Source: Heliocybe sulcata (Eukaryota; Basidiomycota; Agaricomycetes; Gloeophyllales; Gloeophyllaceae). Taken from it: 64,000 bases of DNA. A program made the translations under genes and the position numbers. This document shows, piece after piece, positions 5,898-43,528 of the stretch (its first letter is position 1; each line of letters begins with the position of its first letter). The notes under the pieces are model-generated. The model had not been told where the DNA came from. It did no database searches and saw nothing but the letters and a program-made list of their open reading frames with translations. Where the stretch lies: contig ML213528.1 of assembly GCA_004369045.1 (NCBI GenBank), forward strand, positions 1 to 64,000, given 5' to 3'.

Positions 5898-6196
5898 TAT
5901 TAACAGTCAAACTCTCTCAGTCGGGGTTATAGAACGACTGTATTAGCACTATACCTATTAACAGTCAAACTGTCATACATAAATAAGTATAGCTATCATA
6001 AGAATGTCATAAGGAACGTACCTCTCTCAGTCGGGGTTATAGAACGACTGAGAGAGCGGAAATCGTGCCAGCAAAGCAATTTGCTGGCACCGGCGTAAAC
6101 CGGAATCGTGAGAGTTTCTACCTACGGGACGGTCCGAGTTGCCTAATAAAGAAATATAACGAACGTATGTTTTATTCTAAACTACGGATTCTAACA
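5898..6196 (-). repeat. Copia 3' LTR
   Basis: A 299-bp direct repeat of 10,875-11,173 with one mismatch. In element orientation it starts TGTTAG and ends TAATA rather than the usual CA. It contains two internal duplications: a motif of about 16 bp (TATTAACAGTCAAACT) and one of about 27 bp including CAGTCGGGGTTATAGAACGA. Confidence 0.93.
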
Positions 6197-10874: not shown

Positions 10875-11173
10875 TATTAACAGTCAAACTCTCTCAGTCG
10901 GGGTTATAGAACGACTGTATTAGCACTATACCTATTAACAGTCAAACTGTCATACATAAATAAGTATAGCTATCATAAGAATGTCATAAGGAACGTACCT
11001 CTCTCAGTCGGGGTTATAGAATGACTGAGAGAGCGGAAATCGTGCCAGCAAAGCAATTTGCTGGCACCGGCGTAAACCGGAATCGTGAGAGTTTCTACCT
11101 ACGGGACGGTCCGAGTTGCCTAATAAAGAAATATAACGAACGTATGTTTTATTCTAAACTACGGATTCTAACA
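10875..11173 (-). repeat. Copia 5' LTR
   Basis: A 299-bp LTR identical to 5,898-6,196 apart from one C/T difference. It carries the same internal duplications and the same TG...TA termini in element orientation. It would contain the promoter of the element. Confidence 0.93.
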
Positions 11174-18958: not shown

Positions 18959-19077
18959 CACCTGGGCTTCCCAAAGGAGTAGTCTTATAATAGTGGACAT
19001 ACGACCCACTGGCTCAGTATTGTAAGAGTCAAAGGCTCTATTTCCTAACTCCGGCGGATGCGCCAGCGGTACCACTG
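18959..19077 (+). repeat. KDZ left terminal inverted repeat
   Basis: 119 bp starting CACCTGGGCTTCCCAAAGG. The reverse complement matches 27,070-27,188 with three A/G differences. The inner part holds an ACTCCGGCGGA motif shared with the right-end repeats. Confidence 0.93.
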
Positions 19078-19149
19078 CCCTTGAGCTGGATAGCCTAGTA
19101 CCGGAGACTCCAGCGGCACCGCCAGTAGCCATGGGCACGAGCTTCGGAG

Positions 19150-19182
19150 TCGGGATAGGCGGGAGTCGGGATAGGCGGGCTC
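19150..19182. repeat. Short tandem duplication in KDZ left end
   Basis: The unit GAGTCGGGATAGGCGG occurs twice head to tail just inside the left end of the transposon, in noncoding sequence. Confidence 0.7.
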
Positions 19183-19405
19183 GGCACCGACGGGTACATG
19201 ATGGCGGGAGCAGGTATATGGCGGGCTGCCCATCATACAGTAGTACCTACCCTGAAGGCTAAACCATGTAACTTAACCATAGTGAGCGAATAACATATTT
19301 CATTTATCAAAGTTGTTCAAGGTACAAGAACGTCGGTGAAGTTAAACCTATGGGATTACAAGCAACAGTTCCAATATAGAGAGGCATACTGGTAGAAGGA
19401 TATCT

Positions 19406-21438
19406 TTAAGAGGTTGCGATGCCAGTGCTCAAGCCGTCGACTGAGACATTGAAGTCCATTCCATCGAAACCACTCGGGAGCGCTGATGCCGTGCCCGATA
19501 CACCTGCACCAGGGAAGGCACCTAAATGTCCGGCGAGATGACCGGTCTCTGGGCCCCACATTGCTGCCATGGTATGCGCAACCGGGTCGTGAAGTCCATC
19601 GAATTCCCCGGTGCCCAGCATCATGTCAGGAGCGAGCCGTGGCAACATCGCGTGGAAGGGATCGCGCAGGAAGTCTTGCATAGGTGTGAGTGACATACCG
19701 GCGTCGACATGCATGGCGTCCGTCTTGAAAAGCAGCTGTTCATGTACGGCAGTGGGAGTGACAGACATCGGAGCAGACTGCAGTGCAGTGGCAGTAGACA
19801 AGGGCGGAGGGGTATGGCACATTGGGGGAGCAGGCGAAGGGGACGATGCTAGCGGCGTAGCGGACGGCAGGACTGGACTGCGTGGTGTATTGTCGGTGTT
19901 GGAAGCGACGGAAGACAGAACGGCGCTCGCGGCAGCACGGGCGACAGGGCGAGCGACAGGGCGGGCGACAGGGCGGGCGACGGCATGTGCAGGTGTCTGC
20001 TCACTCTCTTCGTCTGAGTCCTCGATGATCTCCCTGCTCTTCGGTTGGTTTTCCTTGTCGCGTAGGGTACCACCCGCTGTCGTGACCACTGCCGTCCTCT
20101 TCTTCCCTTTCTTACTACCCTTGTCCGACCGCTCCTTCCGGGTGTATTCACCCTCGATGGTCCCATCCTCAATCTGCTGCTGCCGAAGAGCAGCGGCCTC
20201 CTCGAACTCCGCTTGACCCAGCTTGCGGAAAAATACATGACCGTCCTCCCATTGCTTGTAGAGAGCTTCCAGGCGAGGAAGAGACTTCACGACATCACTA
20301 AGGTTGCCGAAGGGGATGTCGTCGGGCCAGCCATCGATTACAAGACGATGTTTGACCGTGATATCGCTCCAGAAATTCGTGTACTGCATCTGCACCTTCT
20401 TGGAAGGTCCGACAGCCTCACCTGGGCTTTGTTAGTCTTATTCTGTCAAACAGCTATGGTTATGCGACGCACACAACTTCCGATCAATTAGCTTTCGCAG
20501 GCTGCTTTTGAGGTCCGTTGAGCGCTTCTTGTATGATAATGCAGCGCCTGCATAATACGATCAGATAGTGGCTGCGATAGACAATGATAACATACCGGTT
20601 AACCCTCGCAGTGCATATGCCTCCATACGACACATGAAATCGTGCAGTTCCAACCTGGTTGTATCTTCCAAGAAGTCTTGTACCCCGTTCGTGCAGAATG
20701 CCCTAGGACTTGATGCGGTATCCGTCCGCCCGCGCACCAAAAGAAGGATTGACTCGGTTCCTGTTCTCTCCTGGAGAAGTGTGAGCTGTCCAAGCGCACA
20801 GTTTAGTATGAGATGGTCGAGATCGAGGTAGATAGGGCTTACTTCGTCCTCTATGGCTTGTGATGTATGTACAAGATCATGTGAACGTGATGTCGCTGTA
20901 GTCCGCATTGCCCTCGCTTGGGTAGCCTTCTCTTCCTCGAACTCCTTGACGATAAGCTCACGCTCTTCATCAGTGAGAGTTTTGTATGCATCTCTGATGG
21001 TCTGTAACAGCGACGGAAGGATGGCCTTCCCTGTACTGCCTGGAGTAGTACCGAGAATCAGCACATATATCCGAGACCGATAGCTATGACAATAGACATA
21101 CCGCCACCCTGTCCATCCCGGCGCATCTTCCACGAGAAAGCATTCCAGGCACTTGTCTTTGAGCGTATACCTTTTGTGAGAGACCCGCGCCCTACGTGGA
21201 TGTCGCAAGAGACACGTTGGAGACTTTTGCCATGTTTCTGTGCGATGTCTTCCACCATCTGTGCGATACGGTCCAGGACATTGTTGATATCGGTGTCGTA
21301 TGCAGCATTTTTCTGGTGACGTTGCAGCTTGAGTCGGTCGCGCGCTTCTTTGCTGAGTTTGACACGAGTAGCCTGTTGCCGTGGACCTTGCCTTCCCCGC
21401 ACAGGCTGTATGTCCTTGTATCGTCGTGTGGGCGCCAT
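19406..21438 (-). CDS. KDZ-element passenger protein, C-terminal gene
   Basis: Multi-exon gene inside the KDZ transposon, from the ATG at 21438 (MAPTRRYKDIQPVRGRQGP) to the stop at 19406-19408. The first exon is basic and rich in Lys/Arg/Gln. Later exons hold TSAWNAFSWKM, GKAILPSLLQTIRDAYKTL and TDEERELIVKEFEEEK, a pattern faintly like an HMG box, then TNFWSDITVKHRLVIDGWPD. The C-terminal third is low complexity, with a tandem VARP repeat (19,937-19,980) encoded by a 12-bp unit. Similar proteins accompany KDZ transposases in other Agaricomycetes as far as I recall, but no enzymatic function can be claimed; DNA binding is a guess. The frame upstream of the ATG is open into the preceding block, so this could be the 3' part of a larger gene joined through a GTAAGT donor near 21,459. 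Confidence 0.65.
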
Positions 21439-21439
21439 C

Positions 21440-23096
21440 AGTGAAGTCGTTACAGGAAAGGTAACTTTTGGACTTACTCCCTTTGGCACATACTCAGTTT
21501 GGATCAACAAGTCCCAAACAAATAACGCGTCGCGGTGGCACATCGCACGTGACCAGTATGCAGCCTTCTGATTATTCAAAGAAGATATCTCAAACAAGCT
21601 TTTATTGAAAAGGAGGATAGAATCCGCAATATCTACATTCAAGGAGCTGGCCAAAAGATGAGCAAAAGTAAGAGAGTTTCGAGAAATGCGAGGAAGTAAG
21701 TGAATATGGAGACCCAGCTCCGACTGCGCCCCATATCGACATTCTCGCACCAGAGTCGGAATCAGTCATACCAGTCATACACAGTGATAGACTCACTGCC
21801 CGGCTCATTGGCTGTGAACCTTTCAAGTCCAGCAGCATAGCATCCACCAGTACCTGCACAGAAGCATCCGGTGCCACCCACTTCTTTTCCTCGATAGCTT
21901 TCTTCCAGCGGGAACTTCGCAATGTCGAGACAATAGCCCACAGTTCGGGAATCACGTTGTCCTCGAGATGAAGATGGTCCAGAGCTCGGTCTGTAGCAGC
22001 ACCAATGCTCAGCAGCGGCTGGGCGGCAATGAGAGATGGCGCCTGATGCAGAGGACTCGGAGCTGGATGGTGAACGGTACGGGCTGTCACAGAGGGCGGC
22101 ATAGCCACGAGAATGGAATGGTCCGTAGTACCAGATGAGGAATTGCCTAGCTCGGCGTGTTGTACAGAGCTGTTTGTCTTTGTGGGCGTCAACATGCCTG
22201 TTCCCATGAGTAGATTAATAAAAAATTTGTACGTACAGGTTCGTGAGAGGGCAACGGTGTCGTGTGATGTTCCTGCTCTTCCATCCCTTGCAATGCATTT
22301 GTAACCTCCGCTGAAGTGACAGATTGCACCATCTCGCTATTCTCTTCGTCAAAGTCACCTGCGATATCATCTAGGACTTGCTGGTCCTCTTCGCCAGTAA
22401 CCCAGACTGAGAAATGCGCAGAGGGTTCTGACACACGTCGAAACATACACTGCTGGGCTTCCCCATCACCTGCCCATTCTGCCTCTGGAGGACCGACTGG
22501 CGGCAATTGCGATGCCTCCCATCGTTCGGCAAAGCGATGCAGATGAGGGAGCGCTATATCATCGTGGAAAATGCGCCCCATTTCTCCCAGCGGCAGTGCC
22601 AGCTCTGAAGCATGCTGGATAGCCTCCCTTGGCGACACGTAGGCATCCATTTGGATCCTGGTGAGCGCATGGCTTTGGGAAGTCGGCAGCCGTCCAGCTA
22701 CTCGCATGAAGTACGAGATCCCGCCGTCCTTCCTGTCCAAGAATGTAATCTAGGCGGCACATGTGTTCCAGTCATATATCGACAGCCCAGCAGGTAACGG
22801 CTCACCGCATCCAGTACATCACAGAGTCTCTGATCCATCAACACTCTATGCTCCTCAACTTCGTCATCTGTAGGCTCCTGATCTCCTCGGCACATCATAC
22901 TGTGGTCTGCATGAAGACCAGAGGCCTCACATAGCTCACTATGGCGGCCATCAGCATGTGCGCCGTACCTCTGGATGGCCCGGACAGCAGCATTGGCTGA
23001 ATCCTTGTCAGGAACATTTCGGATAGTATATGAGGGGGAGAGAGGGTCTTGAATGTAGATGCGAGAAAGTTGCGGTCTTGTAAGGTGGCAGCGCAT
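21440..23096 (-). CDS. KDZ-element passenger protein, N-terminal gene
   Basis: Starts at an ATG at 23096 (MRCHLTRPQLSRIYIQDPLS). Exon 1 ends at 22806, exon 2 starts at 22749 (ITFLDRKDGGISYFMRVAGR), and further exons contain QMDAYVSPREAIQHASELAL, HHTTPLPSHEP, LDHLHLEDNVIPELWAIVST and LLASSLNVDIADSILLFNKS. The ends of exons 2 and 3 were placed by keeping the frame open. The last part (YVPKG) runs without a stop into the frame of the next gene, so the 3' end is uncertain and the two may be one gene. No domain was recognised. It lies head to tail with the transposase on the same strand, which fits a transposon-borne accessory protein. Confidence 0.5.
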
Positions 23097-23360
23097 CGTG
23101 GCGAGTGATATAGTGCTGGAAAGAGTTTGTCGGATACGCTGGTGAGTGATCAGTTGAGTCGCGCGCCACTGCAACTGTCCGATCGGACAGTACTTGGACG
23201 TTACTCTATGTCTGTTTCACGGCCTCACTGCGTCAAATCGTTCGATTTTGCACATATTTCTCGTGAACTATATGTATACTGATTCATTCTTCTAATGCAT
23301 GTATTTTACCATCAAGAACAACGCCGATTGTCTATGCAATAAATGAAGTTCAGTAACAAT

Positions 23361-26300
23361 TTACTCGACCTGGCAGACGAAGTCGACCATTCCTTCAAGC
23401 TGCTGCGCAACCTCCTCCTCATCCTCAATATTGTGCTCTGGAATGTCCTCTGCTATTTCGTCCTGCTCAGCAGCTGCACCTACACATTCTCCTGGTAATA
23501 CTGACCCCAATCTTCGACCCGCACCCCGTCGACCCGTGAAACCCGCCCAACGCTTGATGCGGTCTAAGCGTTGAGTATGAACAGCATTGATGGCTGATCG
23601 CATAGCCCAGCGTCTCTCAACTTCGAGCGCGAGGAGGTTGTCTGAGCGAGACGTTGATTCCGAGAGTTTGCGAAGGACGCACTGTGTCTCGTGCTCTTCA
23701 TCTCGGACAGCCGTACGCAGCCTGCGCATCTCAGCATTTAGCCGCTCTATCTCCTCGTGTGCGCGCTGCAGCTGCAGATACTTGATAGTTGCCTCGCGAT
23801 TCGCAGGTTGCGCCCAAGGCTTCTCCCGAATGTCATCGCGTGACAGGCGTAGCAGTTCGAACTCGCCAAGGAAGCTGTAATCCACGATCTGCTTCCAGGA
23901 TAGTAAAGGACGTGGCGGAGATAGCTTGGCTGCGAGAGTATTATATGACTGGAGTGCATGCTTGATTGCCTCGGATCGACGTTGTAGTGCTTTCGCAATT
24001 TGTGTGCGTAGTTTGTACCCTGTTGAAATGATAGAAGAATGGTTACTCAGTGAAAGTGATTAACGCAGTATACACGCACCTGTGCCAGATACATTGAGCT
24101 TCGAAAGCTCAAAAAGGCGCTGCACGACTAGACGCTCAAGCTCGTCTAGGGCTTTGCGATACTTGCGTTCTTTTAGCTTTAATCTTGCTGCCTGGTACTC
24201 CGACGACTTATCGTCCCACCGTGCTTCGATACCAATTTGATCTTCCAGCCGTTCGACGGTGGCTTGAGCCTTCTCAAGCTTCCTTTCACAGGAGCTGATG
24301 TGCCGACCTGACTTGACAAGCTCCTGGTGAAGGTTTGGTAGCGGCGGCCAACTTGCCTTCAGGCGTTTCACGGCAATACAAGCATCATCAAATGCCGCCC
24401 TGGCAACTATAAGCAGCGATACTGAGTGAATACAACTGTAGCATACCTTGCTTTGGCAAGATTTTCCAAGCCTTCGACGTACTCGAAGCGAAGAGTTTCC
24501 TCGGGCGGTTCCTTCTTTAGGCCTTGCAAGTAAGCGCGTTCTTGCTCTAGAAAGCCATTGAAGTCACTGTCAGTCAAGCACAGCGCGAGCTTCAGTTCTT
24601 CCAGCTCTGCTGAACCCTCTTGAATGATCTTCAGTGCTTCTCGGTAGTGGTTGAACATGTACGTAGCTGATTGTATTCAGTCAGTCATGCTATATAAGTC
24701 CAAAACAGTCGCGCTCACATAATGCAGCATACTTATCTTCATCCCAAAACTTGTAGTGCTCCTCAATCGCTTGCCATCGGTGGAACTTCGAAGCATGGTG
24801 CGTCGTAGCGGCAAGTTCATTTGAGCTGGAAAAAATGCGCTCACATCCCTCCAGATCAGCTCGTCCCATTCCCGGCACGTAGAGTGGGTGCCAGTTCAGC
24901 TGACAGCCCCGGTTATGTGCATGGCCGTGAAACGCTCCAACGACCATTCTCAGATGATGGGTTTTCGCTTTCGGGCCTAAAGAGCTCTTGGCAAGGGTCT
25001 TCTCGAAGGTGCAACCAATGTCGAATGCAGCAGCGATGTCATCGCCGAATACATCTATGAGCTTGTCGACTACAGCCAGGGGGTATTTGGCCCTGTGAAG
25101 ACAGGTGACAGTGCGACAGTGAGAATCAACACAAAATGCTTACAATTCACCACTCTGGATCATGTCACAGATCAGAAGAACAGTACCGTGGCGACAAGCG
25201 CTTAAAAATATACCGCACTCATCGAAGAGTGCAAACATCCGTTTACACTGCTCGGGTCCGGCATTCTTCCAGCGTTCAATACAAACTGACACTGGATCGG
25301 ATTTGTCGTCCACCCAGTTGGAATCTGAGTCCAAGTCAAAATCCTCGTCATCCTCTGCCATTCCCTTTTGCTTGCCATGCATGGATTGCTAGGGATACTG
25401 ACTGAGGTGCAGTCCAACTGCTGTTATCGAGGAACACGTACCTTCACTTCATCCTTGAATTGATCGACCTGTGATGCATGAAGCCAATAATCTGAGCGCA
25501 TTTTCCGGGTGTCTACGCGATCTTCCTGTCTGCGGACTGCGGCATTAGTTCTCTTAAGCGAGTTGTTACCGTCCATCTGGCACATGAACGAGAACTGAAG
25601 TGGAGGCTCGTCCTCGAGCTTATAGAAGCATGCCGGGCAGGCATTCTTGAGCCGCCAGTCAGGGCTATCGTGTTGCATTGCCTTCTTAACGCGGATGTCA
25701 ACCCGGTGCAAAATCTCCAGGTATACATCGTATGCCATCGAGTACTGATCGGCGAGGTATCGATGATATGGAACCTGAATGGTTCATGTCAGGTTGAAAT
25801 GGATGTAAGACTATAACCAGGCTCGAGTGCGTACATTGTGCATATGACATAGCTTGCGAACTTCTGCTTGTATACTGAGCCTGGGGCATACTCGGTGGGT
25901 TTGCCGAAAGACAGCAAGTGTTCTAATTGATATGGCAACCGTGGGATACAGCGGCGAACATCCGATATAGCCATTGCACAGAAGTGTAACGTTCGGGAAT
26001 ATGTCTGCTGTTTCTGGGCGGAATTCCTTTTCCTTTTGATCTAACAATAGAGTAAGCTTCTGGCAACCAAGTGAAAGCAAGACGGCCCATACGAAATATG
26101 TCGACTATGTGTATAGTGAAGACCGATGCATTGGTGCTATCTGCCGGGCATGCCAGCTCTGGAGGTGTCGAAGAGGTCGATGTTGTAGCTTCACTACGAT
26201 AGGTTTCGGACTCGGGCAACTCTTGACTGTTGTTTGCAAGCGCTCGGAAGACCAGATACGCATCGACGAGATTGTCGTATTGTACAGCCCATTCTGCATT

Positions 26301-26797
26301 CCGAGTCTCTACCCTACGGGTTCGGTCTCGATCGTCCAGATAGCGACTGACTTCCGTGAGGATGTAACTCTGTTGATTCTAACATAAATACATACATGCC
26401 GGTTATCTGGGCTAATTGCTCTGCAAATCCATGGAGCACCTCCCCCTCTCGACCCTCATGGCTTATATCAAAACCTTCTTCACCTGGAGGGATGGTATTG
26501 AATGCTGAGCGGTATTCCGGGGTGGACTCCGTATCGAATGCATTGGAGGTATCCATCTCCATAACAGCCTCACGGTGTTCAGAGCTCATACCTATATACA
26601 ACTGAGTTGAATGAAATCCCTGTATAGCCCTATTAGAGGAACACACCGGTAATAATTGCCGCTCTCCTCTCTTCATTGGCTTTCCGTCGTGTGTCTTGTT
26701 TGGACGGGAGGAGGGCCTTGGAAACAAGCTTCCGGCTCCCTCCGGAAGTGCGAGATATTACTTTCTTTGAGATACCCCCCTTATTTCTCGAGCCCAT
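23361..26797 (-). CDS. KDZ transposase
   Basis: About nine or ten exons give roughly 950 residues. The start ATG at 26797 opens a basic N-terminus (MGSRNKGGISKKVISRTSGG) typical of KDZ proteins. Next come a short acidic exon (GEEGFDISHEGREGEVLHGF), a CxC1-like region with ECAVQYDNLVDAYLVF, and exons with LLCNGYIGCSPLYPTVAISI. The catalytic part shows FMCQMDGNNSLKR (acidic residue one), AAAFDIGCTFEKTLAKSSLG, HGHAHNRGCQLNWHPLYVPG and DLEGCERIFSSSNELAATTH (late acidic residue), an RNase H-like fold by family knowledge. The C-terminal third is charged and predicted coiled coil (QLQRAHEEIERLNAEMRRLR), ending at 23361-23363. It would excise and insert the element by acting on the 119-bp ends. No stop within the assembled exons was noticed, so it may be functional. 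Confidence 0.88.
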
Positions 26798-26944
26798 GGC
26801 AATCCTGAAGGCTTTCGAGATAGAGCGCGCGCAGAAGAAGTAGGGCGCGTCGCGTCTTGTACCGTGACCGCGAAGCCCGAGTTCGGCACGTGCAAGGCAG
26901 CGGAAACATCCGCACTTACGTGCGTCATAGATCTGAAGGATGTT

Positions 26945-27100
26945 CCCGCCGGAGTCTGCGAGTGCGTCATAGGTATGTATCCGCCGGAGTCTGCTACTAG
27001 GGAGCTCAGCAATCCGCCGGAGTCAGCGAAGGTACCGCCGGAGTATCTTGCGGTCCAGGTCTTGGAGGCCAGCGGTACCGCCGGCGCATCCGCCGGAGTT
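26945..27100. repeat. KDZ right-end subterminal repeats (CCGCCGGAGT)
   Basis: The 10-mer CCGCCGGAGT occurs five times in about 155 bp here, the last copy lying inside the inverted repeat; inverse ACTCC-type copies occur near the left end. Clustered subterminal motifs commonly serve as transposase-binding sites in large DNA transposons. Confidence 0.75.
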
Positions 27101-27188
27101 AGGAAATAGAGCCTCTGACTCTTACAATACTGAGCCAGTGGGTCGTATGTCCACTATTATAAGACTACTCCTTTGGGAAGCCCAGGTG
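27070..27188 (-). repeat. KDZ right terminal inverted repeat
   Basis: 119 bp, reverse complement of 18,959-19,077 with three differences, ending GCCCAGGTG next to the duplication. Confidence 0.93.
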
Positions 27189-34177: not shown

Positions 34178-34185
34178 GCACCTGC
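34178..34185. repeat. Fold-back element target duplication, left copy (GCACCTGC)
   Basis: Eight bases next to the left arm match GTACCTGC at 35,847-35,854 at seven of eight positions. The single C/T difference is consistent with a mutation after insertion. Confidence 0.7.
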
Positions 34186-34786
34186 CACCTAGACGTCCCA
34201 GACTATGAGCCTTATTAGGCTTACCGTTGCAACTGTCCCTGGGGCCTAGCTAGGCTCAAAATCGCTCTGGGCTGACACCGGCGGTGGTACCGGGGCAGGG
34301 GTTCCCTTAGCTGTAGAGTACTATAGTGTAGACATACTATATATTTATAACACACTATCCATCGACGTCGGTCGCCGACGGTGCCAGGCGCTGTTGCCTA
34401 ATTAGGCCACCCGCACCTCGCGCACGATGTCGACTGTGTAGACTGTCCTTTGGACAGACAAAATACGGGAAAATGCCTGTAAACATTTATAATGGTGCCT
34501 TTATGCGCTCCACGGTCGCTCCCGCCCAGCGCGTCCGCGATGCCGACATAAAGTGCATTGTTGCTTCAGTGGCGGTGCTACCGTCACCTGAAATGGGTAT
34601 GTGGGAAAAACATATGGACATGGAAAAATGCGCTACAATGGCTCCTAGAAAGTCGAAACAAAGCACAATAAATGCAGAAAAAATGGTATATACTGAACAT
34701 AGATTCTATTGTATATCACTAGCTTTATATTGAAACATGTATCCTATATCTTCCAGAACGAATTTATCTTTGTCCACTAGCTGCAG
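34186..34786 (+). repeat. Fold-back element left arm
   Basis: 601 bp, reverse complement of 35,246-35,846; no mismatch was seen by eye. It contains three perfect or near-perfect palindromes of the form GCCTNNNNAGGC at 34,209-34,220, 34,244-34,255 and 34,396-34,407. Confidence 0.92.
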
Positions 34787-35245
34787 TAAGGGCACTCGGG
34801 CGCATAGCAGAACAATAAATGGATGATATCCTTTAGGACAAGTTATGAATATATACTATAATGAAATCGAAAGTATTCTACCATATTTATAGGCTACTGA
34901 GGCCAGTGCCTCTTCTCCTATGGCAGGAGGTGCACCTGTGATAGGCACTGTGAGTGGCATATACTAGATCGAAGCCTGGGGGCTGTTCAGAGGTACTTGG
35001 ATGGCTGTAATGGGCTAATATACATTGAAAATAATTGTAAAAGGTGCTATACCATCATACTATTGCCTCATTGTATGTCTATCAGTAGCAGGAGGGGTAC
35101 CAGACAGAAGTGATACCTGGAGATGCAGTGGACAGAATATTCTGGGGTACTAAGTAAACTTAAAGGAGTATACTAGGGTAGTATAAATACCAGAGCTTAA
35201 AGGTTCTGGATACTTACAAGGCTCACAAATACCCATGTACTGTAC
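34787..35245. other. Fold-back element central segment
   Basis: 459 bp between the arms, AT-richer than the flanks, with no open frame of note and no recognised domain. It would form the loop of a very long hairpin if the strands separated. Confidence 0.7.
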
Positions 35246-35846
35246 CTGCAGCTAGTGGACAAAGATAAATTCGTTCTGGAAGATATAGGATACATGTTTC
35301 AATATAAAGCTAGTGATATACAATAGAATCTATGTTCAGTATATACCATTTTTTCTGCATTTATTGTGCTTTGTTTCGACTTTCTAGGAGCCATTGTAGC
35401 GCATTTTTCCATGTCCATATGTTTTTCCCACATACCCATTTCAGGTGACGGTAGCACCGCCACTGAAGCAACAATGCACTTTATGTCGGCATCGCGGACG
35501 CGCTGGGCGGGAGCGACCGTGGAGCGCATAAAGGCACCATTATAAATGTTTACAGGCATTTTCCCGTATTTTGTCTGTCCAAAGGACAGTCTACACAGTC
35601 GACATCGTGCGCGAGGTGCGGGTGGCCTAATTAGGCAACAGCGCCTGGCACCGTCGGCGACCGACGTCGATGGATAGTGTGTTATAAATATATAGTATGT
35701 CTACACTATAGTACTCTACAGCTAAGGGAACCCCTGCCCCGGTACCACCGCCGGTGTCAGCCCAGAGCGATTTTGAGCCTAGCTAGGCCCCAGGGACAGT
35801 TGCAACGGTAAGCCTAATAAGGCTCATAGTCTGGGACGTCTAGGTG
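35246..35846 (-). repeat. Fold-back element right arm
   Basis: 601 bp mirror copy of the left arm, with the GCCTNNNNAGGC palindromes mirrored at 35,625-35,636, 35,777-35,788 and 35,812-35,823. A further GCCTTGCAAGGC lies just outside at 35,863-35,874. Confidence 0.92.
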
Positions 35847-35854
35847 GTACCTGC
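35847..35854. repeat. Fold-back element target duplication, right copy (GTACCTGC)
   Basis: Matches the left copy at 34,178-34,185 at seven of eight bases. Confidence 0.7.
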
Positions 35855-36010
35855 AGGATCTAGCCTTGCAAGGCTGATGGGATACACCGAACCGCCCACG
35901 CGCGAAACCAAATGGAGAATGAACTAATATACAGATATACATAGAAATACATGTATGCGCCACACTGTCCAGAGCAAGAAATCACAAACGCACCTCCTCA
36001 TCTCCTCACC

Positions 36011-37155
36011 TCAACCCTGCATCTCGCGCTCAATCTCCGCAAGCTCGTCGTCCTCCCAAAAATCATTCTCCGTAATCTATCAATGCCCAACCCATCAGCA
36101 CCGTCCACAACCGAAAAAAAATCAAACAATCCACCCACCTCAAACTCAACCGCCGGCTCCTCCTTCCCCTTCTCCCCCACCTCCGCCTCTCCCATCCCCC
36201 TCTCCACGCCCGCCCTCAACGCATCCCAGTCCCTCTCCTCAACAGCAGGCAGCCCCGTCCCCGCCACCGCCAACGCATCCGCGCCCTCGTTCCCCTCAAA
36301 CCCACTATGCCCCTTCACATACCTCAACCTAACCTTTCCCGCGCGCGCGCGCGCGTCCAGGAGGGCAGCGAGGTACTGAATGAGGGGCTTGTTCCTGACT
36401 GGCCCGGGGCCGGTGGACACGCGCCAGTTGTTGGCGAGCCATTTCGGGAGCCATTCGTGGAAGCATTTGAGGGAGTATTGGGAGTCGGTTTTGATGAGGA
36501 GGGGCGTGGGGGGAGGGGGTGCGGTTTCGAGGGCGCGGGCGATTGCCTGGGGGGTTAGGAGTGAGGGGGTGACTTGAGGGGATGGGGGTGGGGGGAGGGG
36601 ACGTACGATTAGCTCTGCGCGGTTGTTCGTCTGGTCGCCTGGGCAGCGTTCGGAGAGGTTCCTATCAAAATGTGAGAGAAGTACAGCATAGGATAACGCA
36701 TTATAGTAAGCGACTGTATCGTGAACGATGAATTTTCAGTCAAAGGACGTACCTGGGATCGTTGTATCCCCACCACACGCCAATTCCCGCAAGAGCGCCG
36801 ACCTGGCCGTTGCTTCTACACGCCCCGTCGGTATACACCACGTCCCACCCCGCCTCGTCTTCTCCCTCAACATCCACGATCATCTGCGGTAACCTCGCCA
36901 CGCTCGACTTTTGCACGCTTCTCGCCACAGGCCCGGGCTTCACCTTCATAAACGCCTCCGCCTCCGCGCGCGTCTTGAACTTCTGGTGCGTCGCACCATG
37001 GAACCCCTTGGTCTGCGCCTCGCAGTCGGTCCTGGGCGCGTGGGGTGAGTGCGCGCGCACGGGGCGGCGGGAGGGGCGTACCAGGTGGCGTAGATGCCTG
37101 GCTGGCGGCCGACGCGGACGGCGTAGAAGCCGCCTTTGGTGGTGGTTTTGGGCAT
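36011..37155 (-). CDS. Ribonuclease H1
   Basis: Degrades the RNA strand of RNA-DNA hybrids in nucleus and/or mitochondria. Five exons give about 293 residues. Residues 1-55 form the hybrid-binding (viroplasmin-like) domain: GGFYAVRVGRQPGIYATW continues after the first intron into KGFHGATHQKFKTRAEAEAF. The RNase H fold follows with all four catalytic acids: the Asp in VVYTDGACRSNGQ, the Glu in NNRAELI (in a tiny exon), the Asp in IKTDSQYSLKCF, and the Asp in GFEGNEGADAL. The final short exon, entered at about 36,075, encodes ITENDFWEDDELAEIEREMQ and ends at 36,011-36,013; without this splice the frame would carry a spurious tail. Start is the ATG at 37155; no mitochondrial presequence precedes it. 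A (CG)n tract at 36,339-36,356 is coding. It begins only about 160 bp from the fold-back element and looks intact. Confidence 0.92.
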
Positions 37156-38781: not shown

Positions 38782-39148
38782 TTAATGGGCCTGAGCAGCC
38801 TATGATCTCGTATGAGACGTGTTTGGGGGGCCAAGATGTGTCCTCACGCGAATCTGTATCAATCCTTCCTTTCCTTGGAGAGACTTTACCTGACGATCGA
38901 GCGTGCTGTATGTGTCTAATGCCACAGATTTGAATGTCACGCTATCAAGAGGTGGCTGCAACAATCTCAGCAAAATCACGTGCCTAGAGCGAATCGAGTC
39001 GAACAATGGTATCGGCTAACATCTTCGCGAAGCTCGACTCGCCTCGTGCGGGCAATGGCGCGTGTCTCGCATCTGGAGCTTAAATCAGACGCGATCAACA
39101 GATTCTCAATTGCAACTTTCTCCCTTTTGATTTTCGCAGAATCTTGCA
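38782..39148. other. Promoter region of the first F-box-like gene
   Basis: No gene. It contains a 64-bp block (39,022-39,085) that is nearly identical to one upstream of the tandem paralogue. Confidence 0.6.
39022..39085 (+). promoter_or_regulatory. Conserved upstream block, paralogue 1
   Basis: 64 bp beginning TCTTCGCGAAGCTCGACTCG match 41,603-41,666 at 63 positions. It lies about 64 bp before the start codon and opens with the palindrome CTTCGCGAAG. Identity is far above that of the coding exons, suggesting a control element or recent gene conversion. Confidence 0.6.
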
Positions 39149-40953
39149 ATGTCCCAGCCCACGATCCACCGTGGGTTAGATCAAGGATTACGCAGCACGA
39201 GTAATGTAAGCCTCGAGGACTCGATGCTGATCTCCATTCTCCACTCATCATTTTGGACAAGGCACCTCTGTGCTCGCAGAGTGCCGCACTAATAATCCCA
39301 GCCGATGCTCAACGGACGATATGCCGAGACATCCGAGGCAGCAGTGACGACTGGCAAAATGACATGTACCATCTCGCGCTGACCTGCAAGGCGTACAACA
39401 CGACTGCGCTGGATGCTTTATGGGAGCGTCTCTACTCGATCTGGCCACTTTTCAGGCTGATGTACTCATTCAAGCTCAGAACGAACGTGAAGACCGGCCA
39501 AGTGTGGGCTGTAAGCACGCTGCATACCAGACCCATGCTACTATAACACTGAAACATCCCGTAGAGAGCCCCAATGGAATATAACGAGGCCGACTGGCGC
39601 CGCTTCGCCAAATACGCCCCACGCGTGCGTCTTCTGACGCATCGCGAGGACTCGGCGGTCCCCGTCCTTGCGCTCATCCGGGCCATCAAAGCGCACACAA
39701 CCGACCATACCTTCATCTCCAACCTGCGCCGACTGACGTGGCACCTGGGTCCTACGAATCAAGAGGACTCCCTTCTCTCACTGCGCGAGTTTACGCTCCG
39801 CCACCTGCAATCCCTTGAGATCAACTGGCCTGAGCACCTGCCCGACGGTATACCGTCCATTGTCCGCGGCCTACCAGGGTCTGCTCCGCAACTCCGAAGA
39901 CTGCGTCTGGGCTCACTAATCAGTTTCACTATCGAAGACCGCTTCCTTGAGCCTCTGGCCCAGCTCCAGCACCTGGAGACGCTGGAGCTCAAGGTACTGG
40001 ATGACTCTCAATTTGAAGAGCTGTACACCTCCGTACGCAGTCTCAAGCGCTTGTCAATAGGGTATTGCGACACGCACTGGCACCAGATCCAGGTCGATGG
40101 GATCCACCCCAGATTGGAGGAACTCATCCTGGGCGGTTTCTTCGCACGCGAGGCGACGCCGGTAATTGCACACCTAGGTAGCACGTCTCTCCGGCGGCTC
40201 ACCAAGCTCTCCAAATGCGAGATCGCGTCTCTGCTCGAGATTTGGCAGCTGTGCAACGAGCTCTCGCCGCGGTTCGCCAGCACGCTCACCAACGTCCGCA
40301 TCACCATGGACACCCTCGCAGCCAGCGAGGGGCTGTCTCCGGACCCGCCGCAGCTCATGGACGCGCTCTACCCGCTCCTCGAGCTGCCGGAGCTGCGCGT
40401 CTTCGAGCTGGCCGTCCACCAGGAGCTGCGCTCTTTCGTCCCGGAGCTGCACGACAAGGACATGCACCTGATGCTGGTCGCGTGGCCGCGCATCGAGCGG
40501 CTCTCGCTCCTCGTGCAGTTCGTGGGGCTCACCACCGGCAGCCTCGTCGAGGTGGCGCACCACTGCGAGGAGCTTGAGGACCTCCGTCTCTGGCGCATCA
40601 GTATCCCTCCCGACGTCGCTGTCCCTGAGGGCTTCTTCACATCCTTGCCAAGTCTCTGTGTCTTGCACGTGCGTGATTACGAAGCGCCACCGTCCGCGTG
40701 GGGGGCGTACGCCCGTTTCCTGAGAACATTGTTCCCGAATCTTGAGGTGCCAGATGACGTGGAGGATATTTTGCCTACAAAAAATCGACGGTGCACGAGT
40801 CCCGGCACGGACAGCGAAGACGACGAAGAGGAAGAAGCCTGTACTAGCGACTCGAGTGAAAGCGACGGCCCGCTGGACGTCTCGGACATTGCATCGGTTT
40901 CCGATCGTGAGGAACGGTTCATGCGCGATGTGCGGAGGGACATGGGGGAATAA
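39149..40953 (+). CDS. F-box-like/LRR-like protein, tandem copy 1
   Basis: Three exons (39149-39205, 39262-39510, 39565-40953) give about 564 residues. The N-terminus is MSQPTIHRGLDQGLRSTSN. Exon 2 has an F-box-like helix set: IIPADAQRTICRDIRG, MYHLALTCKAYNTTALDALW and ERLYSIWPLFRLM. Exon 3 contains irregular leucine-rich repeats (LQHLETLELKVLDDSQFEEL, SLKRLSIGYCDTHW, EELEDLRLWRISIPPDV) and ends in an acidic serine-rich tail (DSEDDEEEEACTSDSSESDG). F-box proteins of this lineage-expanded agaricomycete group are thought to pick substrates for SCF ubiquitin ligases; this one's target is unknown. Intron positions match the downstream paralogue exactly (exon 2 is 249 nt in both), showing tandem duplication. 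No damage seen. Confidence 0.82.
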
Positions 40954-41714
40954 GCATCGCTGTCGTCATATGTCCTACGAAGTGAGCATTGCAGTTATCA
41001 TTGCCACGGCATCACTGGGGATGTGTGCTCGTCGACAGGCTGGATCCGCTCGTACCTTACGTCGTCTTCATGCCTTGGATTTTCTTGTGAGTCCCGGTTA
41101 GTATAGCGAGTCCTATCATTTATTTAGTTGCTGCGAACGTTCTCTAGGGGCATCTTCATGTCCTCGCAAGTACCTCGAATACTATGTAGCGTTTAGTCAC
41201 GTAGATTTAACTACCCCTACTATCGGAACCCCTCAGCCTTGCGTCTTCAAGCTTGAGCCTTGACCATGCGATGGGTACAACATTCAAGTTTTAAACGCGG
41301 GGGCGCGCGAGGAATTTAACCCCAAAAGCAATATTGTGGAATATGCCAGTAATAAATTTCAAGTAGTGGCCTTACTGTTTCTCGCTCCGTTCCAAGGTGT
41401 ATCCTTAGGCAAATCTGTATCATCATTTTCGTCCGTGTACGAAACATCATCTAGTACCCGCCCCTGCTCTCCAACACCACGAATTACGATCTGTCGCACG
41501 TTCAAGACGTGGCCGCCAGCATAGTCCTATCTAAAGCGGTTATACCCGAGCCTGGTTTGTTCTGAATAGTCGAACAATCGCTGGCGCTGGTACCGGCCGG
41601 CGTCTTCGCGAAGCTCGACTCGCCTCGTGCGGGCAATGGCGCGTGTCTCGCATCTAGAGCTTAAATTCAACAAGATTTTCGTTCTTCTCCCTTCGATTTC
41701 CGCAGAACATTGCC
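40954..41714. other. Intergenic region between the tandem F-box-like genes
   Basis: Contains the 3' end of copy 1, no further gene, and the upstream block of copy 2 at 41,603-41,666. Confidence 0.6.
41603..41666 (+). promoter_or_regulatory. Conserved upstream block, paralogue 2
   Basis: Partner of 39,022-39,085 with a single G/A difference, located about 48 bp before the start codon of the second paralogue. Confidence 0.6.
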
Positions 41715-43528
41715 ATGCCCGTGATTCACCATGGGTCGGATGAAGGACTACGCAACACGAGCAATGTAAGTCTCAAGGATGTAGTGCCGCTCTCTGTTCT
41801 CTGCTGATTCGATCATTCTGGATAAGGCACCTCAGCGCGAGCAGCGTGCGGCACTGATGGTCCCGGCTGATGTTCAACGGACGATATGCCAAGCCATCCG
41901 ACGTAACGGCGGCGACTGGCAAAATAACATGTACCACCTCGCATTGACCTGCAAGGCATACAACGCGAGCGCTTTGGATGCTTTATGGGAGCGTCTGTAC
42001 ACGATCTGGCCACTCCTCACGTTGATGTACTCGTTCAAGATCAAGAAGAATGCGAAGACTGGTGAGGTGCAGGCTGTAAGCATGTTGTGTGCCAAGAGTC
42101 ATACGTCCGCGATACTGAGTCAGCCCATAGACGGCCCCGATGGAATATAATGGGGAAGACTGGCGCCGCTTCGCGAGATATTCTGCACGCGTGCGTTTCC
42201 TGACACATCGCGAGGATCTGGCGCCCCTCGACCTTGCGCTCGTCCTGGCCATCACGTCGCACATGCCCGATCATAGTTTAGTTCCAGGGCTGCGCCGACT
42301 GACTTGGCGCTTGGGGCCTACGAATCAAGTGGACTCCATGCTCTGCCTGCGCGAATTTACATTCCGCCACCTAGAATGCCTTGAGATCAGCTGGCCGGAT
42401 GATCTACCTCGCAGCATACCGTCTATGCTGGGTGCCTTACCGGAGTCTGCGCCGCAACTAAGAAGGCTGCGTTTGAGCAACATATTCAGTATGAAAGATC
42501 GCTTCCTTGAGCCTCTAGCCCGACTCCAGCACCTGGAGACGCTGGAGCTCGATACACTGGACGACTCTCAATTTGAAGAACTGTACACCTGCGTACGCAA
42601 CATCAAGCGCCTGGCAATAGGCTTCTGCGAAACGGATCTGCACGTTATCCAGGCTACAGGGATCTTCCCCAGATTGGAGGAGCTTACCCTTGCCGAGTCG
42701 TTCTCACGCGAGACGACGCCGATGATCACGCACCTGGGCAGCACATCTCTCCGAAGACTCACAAAACTATCTAAATATGAGGTTGCCTCTCTGCGCGACG
42801 TTTGGAGCCTGTTCACTGCGCTCTCACCGCGGTTTGCCAGTACTCTCACCGACATCCGTATTACTATGCATTTCTTAGCTTCAAGTGAGGAACTGGGTCC
42901 GGACCCGCCGCAACTCATGCGTTCCCTCGAACCGCTCCTCGACTTGACGAAACTGCAGACCTTCGAGCTGGCCGTTCACCACGAGCTGGACAATTTTGTC
43001 CCGGAATTCCACGACGCGGATTTACACGCCATACTGCTTGCGTGGCCGCACATCGAGCGGCTTTCGCTTCTCGTGCAGTTCAAGGGGCTCACCACCGACA
43101 GCCTCGTACAGGTGGCGCGCCAGTGCAACCGTCTCGAGGACCTCCGACTCTGGCGAATTTGTATCTCTTCTGATCTCGACATCGCTGCCACCTCGTCGGC
43201 ATGCTTACCGGGGCTTCGTGCGCTGCAAGTTCGTTACTACGAATCTTTGCCGTCCACAGATGAGTTATACGCACGTTTCTTGACACGGTTGTTCCCAAAT
43301 GCCGAAGTTGACCTGCCTGATGACGTGAAGGGCTCGCCTGCAGCCAGTCGACGGCACGCGAGTCCGATCACAGATGGCGAAGAGGATGACGACGCCGAGG
43401 TCCATACGAGTGACTCGGACGGGGATGACTTGCCGCTGGACGTAGCGGACATTGTATCGGACACGGAGGGTGAAGAGACGTTGCTGCGCCTGTATGAGGA
43501 GAGTCAGATACTGATATCTGACGCGTAG
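41715..43528 (+). CDS. F-box-like/LRR-like protein, tandem copy 2
   Basis: Three exons (41715-41765, 41827-42075, 42131-43528) give about 565 residues. It aligns end to end with copy 1: MPVIHHGSDEGLRNTSN at the start, then MVPADVQRTICQAIRRNGGD, MYHLALTCKAYNASALDALW, MEYNGEDWRRFARYSARVRF, leucine-rich repeats (LQHLETLELDTLDDSQFEEL, NRLEDLRLWRICISSDLD) and a short acidic tail. Substitutions are spread along the protein but length and introns are kept, so both copies appear to be under constraint. Function as for copy 1: likely substrate adaptor, unproven. Confidence 0.82.

Follow-up and report, generated by a model that had tools for sequence, protein, structure and literature searches.

The element and its surroundings

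The window, the whole 64-kb stretch analysed (positions 1 to 64,000 of Heliocybe sulcata contig ML213528.1), contains a fold-back element at 34186-35846. Its inverted arms, 34186-34786 and 35246-35846, match at 601 of 601 bp without a gap, an exact identity that rests on assembly GCA_004369045.1, and enclose a spacer of 459 nt. Both ends read CACCTAGACGTCCCAGACTA and are of the CAG type (CACCTAGACGTCCCAG). The element is flanked by the 8-mers GCACCTGC on the left (34178-34185) and GTACCTGC on the right (35847-35854), its target-site duplications (TSDs), which are identical at seven of eight positions. The perfectly matched arms, the CACCT start of the ends and the imperfect 8-bp duplication, all claimed in a preliminary description, are borne out. 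Of the inverted repeats reported within the window, two reach 40 bp, and that of the element is the longer (609 vs 123 nt); a fold of its inner 633 nt merely repeats the inverted-repeat signal. No transposase was seen: just two frames of at least 120 aa are present, mirror images of 133 aa each, and the one scanned matched no Pfam family. An RNase H domain (PF00075, 75 bits) is found in the adjoining frame, 35998-36735 on the minus strand.

Alignments of the arms resolve the element into five parts. The left arm begins with an outer part of 414 bp that is specific to the end type (34186-34599, plus strand) and continues into a remnant, 187 of 597 bp, of a shared core (34600-34786, plus strand), which stops at a deletion junction, 34786/34787. 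Between the junction and the right-hand core lies an alignment residue, the remnant of an asymmetric palindrome centre (34787-34835). The right arm comprises the complete, CpG-depleted core of 597 bp (34836-35432, minus strand) and an outer part of 414 bp with the AGGTG end (35433-35846, minus strand). The copy corresponds to palindrome positions 1-601 joined to all of the sequence that starts just beyond the centre. One inner arm has lost about 0.5 kb, with one break at the palindrome centre, and the 459-bp loop derives mainly from the inner part of the right arm. The arms described earlier are real, but 601-bp arms around a 459-bp loop are not the native design, the copy being internally deleted.

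The KDZ (Kyakuja-Dileera-Zisupton) element reported nearby is also real. It occupies 18959-27188 on the minus strand (8,230 bp), ends 7.0 kb from the palindrome and carries the TSD AGCGTACA on both sides, identical at eight of eight positions. Pieces of the KDZ transposase domain (PF18758) were recognised by profile match at 24741-25591, minus strand, and a CxC1 match lies below its cut-off. The earlier claim that the two elements share their ends holds for CACCT but not for the remainder, the ends of the neighbour being CACCTGGGCTTCCC; it is a possible helper of the palindromes of type C described below, not of the window element.

Members of the family and their end types

The 16-bp end was searched in the 31.6-Mb genome with up to two mismatches. 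The search listed 81 matches, 32 of them exact, vs 33 with a reversed control, so that the two-mismatch matches contain much noise. Forty stretches were fetched, then six more, and the window was added. Four loci found by the end pattern (L045, L054, L063 and L071) were dropped since they matched none of L048, L061, L059 and L034, and L064 was dropped since its match was limited to 36 bp. The elements longer than 200 bp with both ends recognisable number 27, the window element included. This count excludes one-ended loci (for example L033, L042, L047, L052, L055, L057, L062 and L065) and L072 (C23:101094-101239), a MITE-like remnant of 146 bp that keeps both family ends.

The paired elements fall into four end types. 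Type A, with CAG ends, has 14 members including the window element; type B, with CAC ends, has five, one with a KDZ domain; type C (CACCTGGGCT) has four, one of which is the KDZ element of the window; and type D (CACCTTAGGCAGG) has four. An additional type C pair is located at C3:1097025-1100846, outside the fetched stretches and the count of 27. Flanking duplications identical at eight of eight positions, for which the chance is 1.5e-5 per element, are found in 25 of the 27; the window copy has seven of eight and L034 one of eight. Ends that recur with such duplications make the observation in the window more than chance. L034 itself (C3:663767-665914) is a palindrome with intact ends and unmatched flanks, CACTGGTA and CGTACTAG, possibly a recombination product. 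The inner 459 bp of the window element have 28 matches in the genome, all in family elements or halves of them except a relic at C16:617508. A palindromic transposon family occupies more than 20 places of one genome.

Intact palindromes and the identity of their arms

Palindromes whose arms approach 1 kb are usually considered unstable in cells. The intact members of this family are near-perfect palindromes of about 2.1 kb, with arms of about 1.0-1.08 kb and an asymmetric centre. Among the gap-free copies, L048 is 97.9% self-inverse over its entire 2,163 bp and L061 is 95.7% self-inverse; the arms of L060 match over 1,022 bp at 99.0% and those of L075 over 1,023 bp at 96.7%. L076, of type D, is a looser palindrome with arms at 81-88%. 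Twenty non-autonomous paired elements span 2,051-2,330 bp, gap estimates included, a range that leaves out L050 (7,135 bp), L068 (2,830 bp) and the gap-free deletion derivatives, namely the window copy, L036 and L040.

Within a copy, the two cores are identical in the window element and L034 (1.000 in both), and nearly so in L048 (0.998), L067 (0.997), L036 (0.988), L061 (0.985) and L060 (0.983). Seven of ten comparisons therefore lie at 0.983-1.000; the other three, L075 (0.946), L068 (0.921) and L076 (0.875), are not homogenised. Core identity between different type A copies is 0.83-0.99. The simplest account would be arm-to-arm conversion within copies of types A to C; type D does not have such a pattern.

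An arm assembled once and put on both sides would also give identical arms, in which case the fold-back, or its perfection, would be unreal. Exactly identical arms, 601 bp in the window copy and 755 bp in L034, agree with such an artefact, and N gaps in 17 of the 25 non-autonomous paired copies (eight are gap-free) indicate that the assembler struggled. Several observations nevertheless make an artefact highly improbable. Both flanks of the pairs carry TSDs, which match at all eight positions in 25 of 27. Real differences separate the arms of L048 (2 in 1,017), L036 (about 1%) and L075 (5% in the core). The lengths that the assembler estimated for gap-bearing copies are near those of fully sequenced palindromes, and two scaffolds terminate in one copy with the same TSD.

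These scaffold ends lie within family arms, at L051 (C34:199500-203067) and L046 (C20:1-3500), with the flanking 8-mer GTAGCGCC in common. The 60 bases that close C34 and the 60 that open C20 are reverse complements of each other, so that one palindrome is probably split between the two scaffolds, which are probably neighbours. Members of the family thus break assemblies. Another flanking 8-mer, TCTGAGCA, is common to the left-ended L047 (C21:485895) and the right-ended L042 (C10:681589) on different scaffolds; either the element took part in a rearrangement or the scaffolds were misjoined.

Breaks at the palindrome centre

Five of the six derivatives compared, namely the window copy, L036, L040, L069 and L070, have a break at most 115 bp from the palindrome centre. 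The 146-bp L072, with no break near the centre, is the exception among the six. Centre breaks may be over-represented, since intact palindromes are those that assemblies lose. L069 and L070 are single-arm copies. L069 has a single CACCT end, yet duplications identical at eight of eight positions flank it, as would result if gap repair following excision had copied a single arm, halted at the centre and then been linked to the opposite flank. L070 is a weaker case of such repair: its second duplication matches at seven of eight positions about 20 bp beyond the end of homology, and, as a control, an internal match with no more than one mismatch also occurs in 8 of 13 other one-ended loci. The family provides natural examples of breaks at palindrome centres.

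The single-arm copy in L070 (C5:296401 onward) occupies positions 902-1931 of that locus and stops about 115 bp before the ATG of a frame at 2046-2285, which matches the NAD-binding domain of lactate/malate dehydrogenases. An influence of the copy on the host promoter is possible.

The connection with KDZ transposons

A search with PF18758 gave 21 matches at 11 places, two of which sit between recognised ends: the element at 18959-27188 and L059. The latter (C29:105794-114955, 9,162 bp) has a KDZ domain, ends CACCTAGACGTCCCAC, terminal inverted repeats (TIRs) of 284 bp at 97.5% identity and the TSD CTAATTAC on both sides, identical at eight of eight positions. Its terminal CACCTAGACGTCCCA shares the outer 15 bp with the window element. 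Base 16 is C in L059 and G in the window element, and the outer 111-114 bp of the two are 71-72% identical; against family members, the same 15 terminal bases are shared and identity is 71-74% over the outer 111-166 bp.

A KDZ-type origin of the ends of the window element, as proposed earlier for a non-autonomous element, is thereby supported by comparison of the termini, although a helper with the exact ends was not found. The full-length KDZ element with the same ends whose existence was in question is matched by L059 over 15 bp but not at base 16. With this mismatch, the 71-72% identity of the outer region and the different ends of the neighbour, the exact helper has not been seen. Exact CAG ends were found on no KDZ element, ends having been read at two of the 11 KDZ places, and no autonomous element with type D ends was found among those read.

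Duplications of 8 bp are also made by hAT elements, as stated in PMC12730594, and the ends might belong to hAT or another such superfamily, the likeness to KDZ being a coincidence; that the exact CAG-ended helper is unseen would fit. We consider this very improbable. Two KDZ-domain elements combine CACCT ends with TSDs identical at eight of eight positions, one of them (L059) sharing the 15 terminal bases, and none of nine matches to the hAT dimerisation domain (PF05699) lies inside the 27 paired elements, whose N gaps could hide a gene. The preliminary description had named linkage to a hAT transposase as the finding that would refute a KDZ origin. Membership in CACTA/EnSpm is not supported either, the TSDs being 8 bp and not 3 bp; that superfamily has 3-bp TSDs and CAC..GTG termini (PMC12730594).

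One further candidate, L050 (C27:334742-341876), is a 7.1-kb element (7,135 bp) with CAG ends, TSDs identical at eight of eight positions, palindrome pieces inside and a 1,865-bp gap. A DNA segment of 142 bp is 94% identical to the KDZ element L059. L050 was rejected as an autonomous CAG-ended element because it has no protein match to KDZ parts, although N accounts for 1,865 bases of its sequence; it is a composite.

A core with four sets of ends

The outer part of the arms measures 414-427 bp in types A to C and about 350 bp in type D; the inner part is a core of 597 bp common to palindromes with all four end types. Across end types the outer parts are 0.34-0.52 identical and the cores 0.64-0.94; in types A and B the outermost 110-130 bp can nonetheless be aligned at 65-70%. 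The GC content of the core is 0.39-0.42 and its CpG observed/expected ratio 0.16-0.28 in five elements; the corresponding values are 0.48-0.57 and 0.83-1.12 for the outer 400 bp, and 0.53 and 0.99 for the whole window. The core is absent from both KDZ elements read (L059 and 18959-27188), and the core block has no exact match in viral contigs. The core of L075 reaches 0.92-0.94 identity with type B cores but only 0.80-0.83 with cores of type C, the type to which its ends belong at 0.98 identity. The histories of its core and its ends therefore differ, and the identity patterns show that the core has passed between two or more end types.

Such persistence might mean that the core is a functional module, a source of double-stranded RNA or a set of spaced binding sites, kept palindromic by selection. 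Indels are indeed scarce: six cross-type pairs have 0-2 events at 117-202 substitutions. In four within-type pairs fixed by the script, one per type, the core has 265 substitutions and 2 indels vs 142 and 14 in the ends (Fisher p = 3.2e-5). The remaining four pairs, however, have 188 and 3 vs 103 and 2 (p = 1.0), and the value for all eight, p = 2.5e-4, comes from pairs that are not independent. A conservation rhythm of about 150 nt, with a power of 479 vs a shuffle 95% maximum of 157, also favours function, but it spans four cycles only and, with a plain shuffle control, could reflect chance or an ancient repeat inside the core. Segments 3 and 4 of such a putative 150-bp repeat exceed the shuffle maximum in two of five members. 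No helical rhythm of 10.5 bp was seen.

Protein coding in the core was not adopted because the codon score is inconsistent over nine pairs: the best of six frames exceeds the single-frame shuffle 95% mark in three and the maximum in one (C vs D), and substitutions are flat across codon positions. A conserved RNA structure was rejected for want of convincing covariation. A coarse shuffle of columns gives z below -3 for four of 16 RNA windows, and in the stretch examined predicted pairs changed on both sides number 1 of 15 on one strand and 1 of 31 on the other. Rfam gave no match to the core at E up to 1. These results speak against a functional core, and decay of an old methylated repeat can by itself give the CpG loss; we hold the functional reading to be rather unlikely. 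A tentative suggestion, possible rather than probable, is that the non-coding, length-conserved, CpG-poor core is a long-lived selfish module, maintained in palindromic form, that survives by taking the ends of whichever KDZ transposon happens to be active. If true, core and ends would have separate histories across the four end types.

Proposed origin and relation to known elements

We think it likely that the window copy is a non-autonomous, internally deleted palindrome that was moved by KDZ in trans, with arms converted, centre trimmed and core exchanged. KDZ cut-and-paste transposons have the same CACCT...AGGTG ends and 8-bp TSDs, so the palindromic passengers were most likely moved by a KDZ transposase acting in trans. 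Conversion between arms would hold the two arms of one copy near-identical. Repair after excision or breakage of a palindrome would tend to halt at the centre, as the breakpoints suggest, and so give rise to derivatives; the window copy would be one of these, with one arm complete and the other reduced to 601 bp. The core has also passed between end types, as the identities show. The switching of helpers by non-autonomous elements could be studied well on a core found with four sets of ends, and the palindromes, if transcribed, would yield long perfect hairpins.

MITEs and internally deleted, Ds-like elements are non-coding, have inverted ends and are presumed to be mobilised in trans. The palindromes differ in greatly exceeding the length of a typical MITE and in combining a single core with four end types. 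They share 8-bp TSDs with Zisupton, Dileera and KDZ1, as given in PMC12810828 and PMC12730594 (for Zisupton and Dileera, the latter). The Cryptococcus element KDZ1 has TSDs of 8 bp and TIRs of 241 bp, and KDZ2 and KDZ3 have TSDs of 4-8 bp; in the same paper, no clearly non-autonomous KDZ copies were seen moving in Cryptococcus (PMC12810828). The KDZ TIRs given in these two papers measure 139-241 bp, and the KDZ elements of the present genome are 8.2 and 9.2 kb long. Kyakuja is unlike the palindromes, with a 7-bp TSD and no TIR (PMC12810828 and PMC12730594). Unlike KDZ elements, the palindromes have no transposase, are almost wholly palindromic and contain a core that is not in the two KDZ elements read.

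A parallel in behaviour is offered by Galileo/Foldback of Drosophila, which, according to PMC3573991, has long, variable TIRs of up to about 1.2 kb and occurs as two-TIR copies, solo TIRs and chimeras in which TIRs of one subfamily are joined to internal regions of another. It is a member of the P superfamily with 7-bp duplications and internal tandem repeats (PMC3573991); the palindromes have KDZ-type ends and 8-bp duplications. The window element has the long inverted arms of Foldback (601 bp) without its internally repetitive arms, its only repeats being two-copy ones of 9-16 bp. This kind of behaviour is already known (PMC3573991). KDZ-type palindromes with a common core look new: no description of palindromic KDZ passengers was found in the open-licence full-text literature searched.

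Other repeats in the window

Two identical direct repeats of 299 bp, at 5898-6196 and 10875-11173, lie 4,977 bp apart and resemble LTRs that flank a young retrotransposon. The region 39007-43528 is a tandem duplication with a spacing of about 2.57 kb, each copy of which contains a frame of about 460 aa with a weak likeness, below the cut-off, to F-box LRR proteins.
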